Positions 4,151 through 33,521 of a stretch of 39,805 nucleotides of DNA are shown here, one piece after another. The stretch is from an archaeon. GTDB taxonomy: Archaea > Nanobdellota > Nanobdellia > SCGC-AAA011-G17 > ARS1178. The DNA is taken from assembly GCA_002688325.1 (NCBI GenBank), contig NZCS01000013.1, positions 1-39,805 on the forward strand. Direction: 5' to 3'. Under the pieces are notes generated by a model. That model saw only the letters and a list, made by a program, of their open reading frames with translations. It did not search any database and was not told where the DNA came from. Positions within the stretch are counted from its first letter, which is position 1. Every line of letters begins with the position of its first letter. The position numbers were made by a program, and so were the translations under genes.

Positions 4151-5041
4151 ATGAAAATTTTAGTAACTGGTGGATGTGGTTTTATTGGAAGTCATATTGT
4201 TGATTTATTAATTGAGAATGGTCATGAGGTTGTTGTATTAGATAATTTGAGTACTGGGAATAAAGAAAATTTAAATGAAAAAGCTAAGTTTTATGAAAAA
4301 GATATAAGAATGAACTTAAGTAAGATATTTGAAGAAGAAAAGTTTGATGTTGTTATACATGAAGCAGCTCAGATAAATGTTAGAAGTTCTATGGAAAATC
4401 CAATAAATGATGCTGAGATTAATATTCTAGGAAGTTTAAATTTAATTGAGTTAAGTAAGAAGTTTAATGTTAAGAAGTTTATTTATGCTAGTTCTGGTGG
4501 TGCAATGTATGGAGATCCAGAGAAAATTCCTTGTGATGAAGAACATAAAATAAATCCATTAAGTCCTTATGGTTTTAGTAAAGGTGCAGTTGAATGGTAT
4601 ATTGTAAATTCTGGTTTGAAATTTTGTGTTTTAAGGTATTCAAATGTTTATGGTCCTAGACAAGATCCTAAAGGTGAAGCAGGCGTTATTAGTATTTTTA
4701 TTGATAATATGTTAGAAGGTAAAAAGTGTTTTATTAATGGTAATGGTGAACAAACAAGGGATTTTGTTTATGTGGAGGATGTTGCTAAGGCTAATTTGAT
4801 TGCTTTGGAGAAAGAAGGATATTTTAATATTGGTACTGGTGAAGAGATTAGTGTTAATAATTTATTTGAAGGTATAAAGAAAGTTGTTGGAAAAGGTGAA
4901 AAAGAAAATAGAGATGAAATAAAAGGTGAAGTTTCTAGAATTAGTTTAGATGTTAGTAAGGCTGAAAGAGAATTAGGATGGAAAGCAGAAGTTAAGATTG
5001 AGGATGGATTAAGAAGAACAGTTGAGTATTTTAAGAAATAA
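4151..5041 (+). CDS. NAD-dependent epimerase/dehydratase (GalE-like)
   Basis: An extended short-chain dehydrogenase acting on NDP-sugars, most like UDP-glucose 4-epimerase. The Rossmann motif GGCGFIGS is at residues 7-14, the aspartate that binds the NAD ribose follows in VVLDNLSTG (about 28-36), the SSGGAMYG block is at 114-121, and the catalytic pair YGFSK gives Tyr140 and Lys144. LRYSNVYGPRQ and RDFVYVEDVAKA are the usual substrate-side motifs. At 296 residues it is slightly shorter than bacterial GalE but normal for archaeal members. A TTTTAAAAA box lies about 27 nt before the ATG. It probably works with the nucleotidylyltransferase at 2789 in making activated sugars. The exact sugar cannot be read from the sequence. 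Confidence 0.9.
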   Translation: MKILVTGGCGFIGSHIVDLLIENGHEVVVLDNLSTGNKENLNEKAKFYEKDIRMNLSKIFEEEKFDVVIHEAAQINVRSSMENPINDAEINILGSLNLIELSKKFNVKKFIYASSGGAMYGDPEKIPCDEEHKINPLSPYGFSKGAVEWYIVNSGLKFCVLRYSNVYGPRQDPKGEAGVISIFIDNMLEGKKCFINGNGEQTRDFVYVEDVAKANLIALEKEGYFNIGTGEEISVNNLFEGIKKVVGKGEKENRDEIKGEVSRISLDVSKAERELGWKAEVKIEDGLRRTVEYFKK

Positions 5042-17873: not shown

Positions 17874-17999
17874 GCAGTAGTAGTCCAGTCTGGCTAAGAC
17901 ACTGGCTTGCCAAGCCAGGAACCCGGGTTCAAATAACTAACCTTTTTAAAAAAAAGATTAAGCAAAAAAGGAAAAAGTTGGAAAGTCCCGGCTACTGCA
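17874..17999 (+). tRNA. tRNA-Gly (anticodon GCC) with an insertion in the T-loop
   Basis: Acceptor GCAGTAG (17874-17880) pairs with CTACTGC (17992-17998), discriminator A. The anticodon stem CTGGC/GCCAG encloses TTGCCAA, giving anticodon GCC. The T stem is CCGGG (17923-17927) with CCCGG (17987-17991), but the loop between them is 59 nt instead of 7. The loop starts normally as TTCAAAT, so about 52 nt must be an intron in the T-loop. Removing it restores a 74-nt tRNA. I see no strict bulge-helix-bulge by eye; only a relaxed one around ACT/AGT is possible. The TATA box at 17841-17847 is centred 30 nt upstream. Confidence 0.88.
17942..17977 (+). repeat. tRNA-Gly intron core resembling the A-tract element
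   Basis: Within the tRNA-Gly insertion, C-T5-A8-G, then ATTAAGC, A6 and GGAAA align without gaps to 33436-33469 at 29 of 34 positions. The non-A landmarks (G, TTAA, C, GG) keep the same spacing. The insertion may therefore derive from the dispersed element. Confidence 0.5.
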
Positions 18000-19977: not shown

Positions 19978-20034
19978 TTACAACCTCTTTTAAATTTTAG
20001 AGTAAGTGAAAGTTTATTAAGTTTTTGGTATAAT

Positions 20035-20066
20035 CTTTTTTAGGAAAAAAGCTTCACCAAAAAAAG
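20035..20066 (+). repeat. A-tract dispersed element, diverged copy
   Basis: C-T6-AGG-A6-G followed by CTTCACC and an A7 tract. It matches the copies at 27465-27505 (minus) and 33424-33463 with a few substitutions, and is preceded by TATAAT where those have TGTAAT or TGTAAG. It lies between the divergent promoters of the antiporter and radical SAM genes. Confidence 0.6.
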
Positions 20067-20107
20067 AAAAGAAAAGTTTTTTATACTAATATTAGGGGTC
20101 TTTTTAT

Positions 20108-27411: not shown

Positions 27412-27464
27412 AAAAATTTGAGTTATATTATGTTTATAAAGTTTGTGGAAAATAACTGCGAAAG

Positions 27465-27505
27465 TTTTTTGGTTAAGCTTTTTTAGAAAAAAGATTACAG
27501 TTAAA
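27465..27505 (-). repeat. A-tract dispersed element, full copy
   Basis: Read on the minus strand: TTTAACTGTAAT, then C-T6-CT-A6-G, then CTTAACC and A6, 41 nt in all. It matches 33424-33463 with one substitution and one T more. It lies between the divergent promoters of the kinase-fold gene (minus) and scpA (plus). The centre can fold as a short T6/A6 hairpin. Confidence 0.8.
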
Positions 27506-33366: not shown

Positions 33367-33423
33367 ATTTTAAGTAAAGATATGTTAATTTTTAAGTATT
33401 TATATAGTAAAAGGAAAAGTTGG

Positions 33424-33463
33424 TTTAACTGTAAGCTTTTTCTAAAAAAGCTTAACCAAAAAA
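33424..33463 (+). repeat. A-tract dispersed element, full copy
   Basis: TTTAACTGTAAG, C-T5-CT-A6-G, CTTAACC, A6 (40 nt), nearly identical to the minus-strand copy at 27465-27505. TAAGCTTTTT (33432-33441) and AAAAAGCTTA (33445-33454) can form a 10-bp hairpin with a 3-nt loop. It lies between the divergent promoters of the minD operon and the gene at 33522. Confidence 0.8.
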
Positions 33464-33521
33464 GGAAAGAAAAAACTGGAAAATATAAATGTTTAAATAG
33501 TGGTTATTTTTTGTTTTATTT

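Follow-up and report, generated by a model that had tools for sequence, protein, structure and literature searches.

The tRNA-Gly(GCC) gene and its T-loop insert

The window (the whole stretch of archaeal DNA analysed here, 39,805 nt) lies on contig C13 of a draft genome of 606 kb and 72% completeness, referred to below as G000. It carries a tRNA-Gly(GCC) gene that becomes readable on the forward strand at positions 17874-17999 once 52 nt are taken from its T loop. The parts of this gene, together with the copies of a dispersed hairpin element found in the window, are as follows (E-values and bit scores are those of the covariance model R1, described below).

17874..17933, + strand: tRNA-Gly(GCC) 5' exon, nt 1-59, T-loop end ...CCGGGTTCAAA (sequence; ARAGORN call on the spliced form)
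17928..17931, + strand: exon strand of the predicted bulge-helix-bulge central helix, UUCA, T-loop nt 54-57 (partner GGAA at 17980-17983, 3 of 4 pairs)
17934..17985, + strand: putative T-loop intron of 52 nt, site 59/60 (T stem and acceptor pair around the insert; UUC/GAA central helix)
17936..17973, + strand: element copy inside the Gly intron (E=2.4e-7, 49.4 bits)
17980..17983, + strand: intron strand of the central helix, GGAA, then bulge AGU (cut after AG) and the 3' splice site (sequence and T-loop scan)
17986..17999, + strand: tRNA-Gly 3' exon, nt 60-73, TCCCGGCTACTGCA (equal to the matching end of the uninterrupted tRNA-Gly of G013, locus L067)
20029..20068, + strand: further intergenic element copy (E=5.2e-4)
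27461..27499, - strand: further intergenic element copy (E=8.4e-6)
33430..33467, + strand: intergenic element copy, the one named by the earlier note (E=7.2e-8, 51.9 bits)

The exons of the gene contain a complete acceptor stem (GCAGTAG/CTACTGC), anticodon loop (TTGCCAA) and T stem (CCGGG/CCCGG). The unspliced gene was missed by both ARAGORN and Rfam searches. Removal of the 52 nt produced a 74-nt RNA, which ARAGORN called as tRNA-Gly(gcc) and which has a tRNA fold, with the T stem, T loop and acceptor restored. This bears out the claim of the earlier note that taking out a T-loop insertion of about 52 nt yields a TTCAAAT or TTCAAGT loop. The ARAGORN run was made with the cut placed one base to the left of 59/60 (loop TTCAAGT); the preferred 59/60 cut leads to the loop TTCAAAT, and the last 26 nt then equal the end of the G013 tRNA-Gly, which has no insert (CCCGGGTTCAAATCCCGGCTACTGCA).

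The tRNA-Gly(GCC) pattern was found in 14 genes among 61 genomes of the order, 12 of which lack a T-loop insert. The two inserts, one each in G000 and G012, are unrelated in sequence. The comparison covered relatives from the same order, and the other tRNA-Gly(GCC) genes come from other families. No second gene of this pattern was found in the 72% complete G000 assembly. A group I or group II intron was considered and rejected: the Rfam search of the window returned no ribozyme match, and the insert, which lacks such a core, has just 52 nt. In the tRNA-Gly genes of family f3 (L218, L219 and L088), we observed a second copy of the gene's own 3' end (CGGTCGGCGCA) within about 60 nt downstream; these duplicates may be leftovers of site-specific integration.

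The geometry around the insert is that of a canonical bulge-helix-bulge: a bulge AAU (cut after AA), a central helix UUC(A)/(G)GAA, a bulge AGU (cut after AG), and the T stem as the outer helix. The two 3-nt bulges lie on opposite strands on either side of the central helix, in which three of four pairs are present in tRNA-Gly (with one A.G mismatch; that of the Arg gene discussed below is A.A), and all four, with covariation, in many relatives. The inner helix begins with AACU/AGUU (17935-17938 with 17976-17979). The statement of the earlier note that no strict bulge-helix-bulge is visible thus requires correction as regards the geometry, but it stands as regards the imperfect central helix. 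The minimum-energy fold of the tRNA-Gly precursor does not include the UUC/GAA helix.

A scan for T-loop inserts, which required T-stem and acceptor pairing around the insert, identified 24 with the 59/60 geometry, compared with one in 1.07 Mb of simulated DNA. These include the Gly, Arg(CCT) and Tyr genes of G000, and one of them (L132) resembles a chance match. The base facing nt 57 covaries, giving TTCA/TGAA in L062, L149, L154 and L248, and TTCG/CGAA in L239, L251, L255 and L257; purine mismatches occur opposite nt 57 in the three G000 genes as well as in L065 and L074. This covariation across T-loop inserts suggests that the splice structure is under selection. The insert lies at a known archaeal T-loop intron site, 59/60, and the view of the earlier note that it is almost certainly an intron is supported. 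Quite different hairpins are present in the T-loop introns of the same geometry at L074, L160, L211, L166 and L310, so more than one hairpin family may be used in such introns.

Mismatched splice motifs are usually cut by endonuclease types of broader specificity. G000 encodes one EndA gene, in which PF01974 and PF02778 are joined in a single 189-aa ORF (contig C32). This is the only EndA subunit detected in the genome (72% complete), and its sequence is nearest to the M. jannaschii enzyme. The combination of a mismatched tRNA-Gly motif with an EndA of this kind counts against the splicing of the insert.

A dispersed hairpin element and its location

The core of the insert belongs to a family of hairpin elements of approximately 38 bp (consensus TAANCTTTTTnnnAAAAAGCTTAANCAAAAA), in which an unpaired tail, TTAANCAAAA, is also conserved. 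The earlier note had aligned this core with a single intergenic sequence at 33436-33469. The local alignment between the insert and the intergenic element scored 28, the best among 1,696 A/T-rich segments of the window (mean 9.2, sd 2.5), so the likeness surpasses that expected of A-rich DNA of matched composition. The second and third best segments were copies of the same repeat, and shuffled versions of the element reached at most 18. A regular expression for the repeat matched four places in the window, but none in 200 Markov-simulated windows or in the reversed window. BLAST of the Gly insert against its own genome revealed eight further places at E < 0.001 (best 1.7e-8), and BLAST of the intergenic copy more than twenty (best 7.9e-12). 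The sequence AAAAGGAAAAGTTGG, directly before this intergenic element (33411-33424), is similar to the Gly intron in its 3' half (AAAAAAGGAAAAAGTTGG); the two blocks look as though they had changed places.

The covariance model R1, built from 54 archaeal element copies, all outside G000, extended the one copy noted earlier to tens of copies. It matched 27 places in G000, 65 in G030, 41 in G013 and 22 in G049, and between 0 and 7 in other genomes, with zero in most of the order. Compensatory changes link the two arms of the hairpin (U-A replaced by G-C or A-U at the stem base, and G-C by A-U further in): eight cells were altered on both sides, a value reached by none of 500 shuffles.

Among the other tRNA introns of G000, the element is also present in the T-loop intron of tRNA-Arg(CCT) (contig C31) and, as a variant hairpin, in that of tRNA-Tyr(GTA) (contig C6), while the anticodon-loop intron of tRNA-Leu (contig C17) contains the hairpin in the opposite orientation. 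Of the two introns of the tRNA-Tyr(GTA) gene (L003; about 1328-1530 of contig C6, minus strand), the first interrupts the anticodon loop and the second, which holds the element variant, the T loop. The other G000 copies are intergenic, some of them directly at tRNA ends. Element-like intron sequences therefore occupy different tRNAs and different positions within them, and they were found in many tRNAs of the relatives. G000 carries the element in the T loop of its tRNA-Gly(GCC), and G031 (L249) in the anticodon loop of the same tRNA, which indicates independent insertions.

Of 25 matches fetched from the low-copy genomes, 20 belong to structured-RNA genes: 18 to tRNA genes, where they occupy anticodon, T and D loops, one to a 23S rRNA gene, and one to an RNase P RNA gene, inside it or at its 5' end. 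The other five are intergenic. As RNA genes make up an estimated 1% or so of these genomes, the excess of the element in RNA genes is very large. The 18 tRNA placements are based on cmscan across the element (9), the T-loop scan (4), a second intron (1), and splicing or reading by eye (4). An automatic search for anticodon-loop introns gave chance matches in 35 of 263 shuffled controls, and ARAGORN with arbitrary cuts mislabels tRNAs carrying two introns; anticodon-loop assignments accordingly rest on cmscan, ARAGORN and by-eye reading. Reading by eye placed the start of the hairpin usually 0-5 nt past the 5' splice site of the intron, and reversed hairpins sit towards the 3' splice site (L018, L186 and L190). 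The RNase P RNA gene holds the element at its 5' end in both G049 and G045 (L063 and L238), where the Rfam P1 pairing fails; the element there is possibly an intron or a replaced P1.

A scan of GTDB genomes with the exact pattern retrieved 93 stretches, many of them in tRNA genes of Aenigmatarchaeota, Micrarchaeota, Nanoarchaeota, Woesearchaeota and others, and one within the 16S gene of a Micrarchaeota genome. On one Aenigmatarchaeota contig (L129, reverse strand, near 4900-4990), three elements lie in tandem. Further copies were found in bacteria, including exact intergenic ones in Komagataeibacter and Defluviitaleaceae, whose kinship with the archaeal element is judged from some 27 matching nt.

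Intergenic copies frequently abut open reading frames. An ATG was in contact with 14 of the 81 copies tested (loci L102-L111 and L257-L311, from G030, G049, G013 and G000) and a stop codon with 9, often the TAA of the element itself, compared with 3 and 6, respectively, of 500 random positions. This distribution would fit insertions retained only where they are harmless.

Proposed origin of the putative intron

Our preferred reading, to which we assign a probability of about three in four, is that tRNA-Gly(GCC) contains a true bulge-helix-bulge intron at 59/60, whose core comes from a short mobile palindromic element. It draws on features that can be read directly from the DNA, i.e. the hairpin family and its placement, the splice motif with its covariation, the insert-free orthologues, and the different insertion sites within the same tRNA; from these we infer that the insert is spliced and that the element preceded the introns. 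EndA would cut at the two bulges and an RNA ligase would rejoin the exons. The element, of which a copy makes up the 5' two thirds of the Gly insert, would on landing in a gene for tRNA, rRNA or RNase P RNA provide the inner hairpin and the A-rich linker of an intron. A few nucleotides at the 3' end of the intron, complementary to the upstream exon, would complete the splice motif and would be its sole site-specific part. Old invasions would leave mainly intronic copies, since splicing would keep these under selection while the intergenic ones decay, and this would explain the low-copy genomes.

The dispersal of the element would be due to its mobility. Matches to the Y1_Tnp/RAYT gene (PF01797) were absent from both G000 (72% complete) and G030 (the richest relative, 96% complete), and mobilisation of the RAYT/IS200 type was therefore rejected. 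The exact pattern was also absent from IMG/VR viral contigs, and viral carriage was likewise rejected. No target-site duplication was recognised at the element copies and no transposase could be tied to them.

The opposite order of events, in which related tRNA introns move from one tRNA gene to another, as has been suggested for Thermoproteales, and have left the intergenic copies by escape or decay, is a possibility that we consider seriously but regard as rather doubtful. The confinement of nearly all copies in low-copy genomes to structured-RNA genes is in its favour, as is the position of several G000 copies at tRNA ends. However, G000 and G030 have more free copies than intronic ones, the hairpin of the G000 Leu intron is oppositely oriented, and exact intergenic copies exist in Komagataeibacter and Defluviitaleaceae, bacteria without bulge-helix-bulge splicing. 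On the question of precedence, the free bacterial copies favour the element, whereas the RNA-gene bias of the low-copy genomes favours introns or targeted insertion. Convergence, i.e. the independent origin of A/T-rich hairpins in introns and between genes, alike merely by composition, appears improbable. The element is indeed of low complexity (T5/A5 arms) and other hairpins are found in some T-loop inserts (L074, L160 and L211), but such an origin is contradicted by the failure of the repeat pattern to appear in simulated or reversed DNA, by the conserved unpaired tail, and by a patchy copy number (65 in one genome against zero in most of the order).

It is even less probable that the element acts as a terminator or promoter and overlaps the intron by mere coincidence. 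The contacts with ORF starts and stops would suit this role, but copies are present within tRNA and rRNA genes and occur in both orientations; a terminator was rejected on account of these sites and of the absence of a T-run past the hairpin. The least credible explanation is that insertion of the repeat, which is common between genes, killed the tRNA-Gly gene and left a pseudogene. The exons are intact, with a 3' exon matching uninterrupted orthologues, the end of the insert carries the exon-complementary GAA and the AGU (cut after AG) of other T-loop inserts, and no second gene of the tRNA-Gly(GCC) pattern was found in G000.

Relation to known mobile elements and introns

Eukaryotic introners are mobile elements that turn into introns in many genes. 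The element described here would resemble them in being mobile DNA that becomes introns in many genes, and would differ in needing EndA rather than the spliceosome, in occupying RNA genes rather than mRNA, and in having no known transposase. A wider proposal, for which we see the odds as even, is that a mobile palindrome of about 38 bp, spread across DPANN phyla and bacteria, generates splice-competent introns in archaeal tRNA, rRNA and RNase P RNA genes, and would thus constitute a prokaryotic counterpart of introners.

Archaea are known to have introns at 59/60 and at further non-canonical sites (PMC4090602). The Gly intron is like the 59/60 introns in its position, length range and splice motif, and in the presence of EndA, and differs from them in that its core is a dispersed free-standing repeat and in its one central-helix mismatch. 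How archaea gain tRNA introns has been described as unknown in a review (PMC4090602). In Thermoproteales, similar introns in different tRNAs have been taken as evidence of intron transposition, by a mechanism left unexplained in the accounts on which we draw (Fujishima 2010, via PMC4033280, PMC4090602 and PMC10714607). The family in G000 likewise comprises similar introns in different tRNAs and positions, implying movement; it differs in that its hosts are DPANN archaea, that rRNA and RNase P RNA genes carry the hairpin too, and that it has tens of intergenic copies and bacterial look-alikes. In Caldiarchaeum, tRNA intron gain has also been linked to mobile DNA, but the mobile DNA in that case is an integrating element of 1.8 kb found at a single tRNA-Thr locus (PMC3293823), whereas the palindrome described here measures about 38 bp and occupies many genes.

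Our literature search, which was weak on subscription journals, found no report of a free-standing repeat common to tRNA, rRNA and RNase P RNA inserts, nor of T-loop introns in Woesearchaeota. The identity of the intron core with a free-standing repeat provides a concrete candidate source of archaeal RNA introns, which can be traced across genomes, and the mobile palindrome, if real, would explain how such introns are gained. As general tRNA and RNA-family searches miss genes interrupted by the element, the tRNA sets of DPANN archaea can look incomplete.

The element also shares with the REP/REPIN-RAYT systems (PMC3116915) the character of a short extragenic palindrome dispersed in tens of copies, and differs from them in the lack of Y1_Tnp in G000 or G030 and in its insertion into RNA genes as putative introns. 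In Komagataeibacter, copies (L143, L169, L173, L188 and L200) are present on plasmids as well, and adjoin a second, inverted hairpin of the same design (AAGTTTTTGGGTGCCGCCTTTTTTCAAAAAGGCGGC ... AAGCTTTTTGAAAAAAGCTTAACCAAAAACTT) in a REPIN-doublet-like arrangement.
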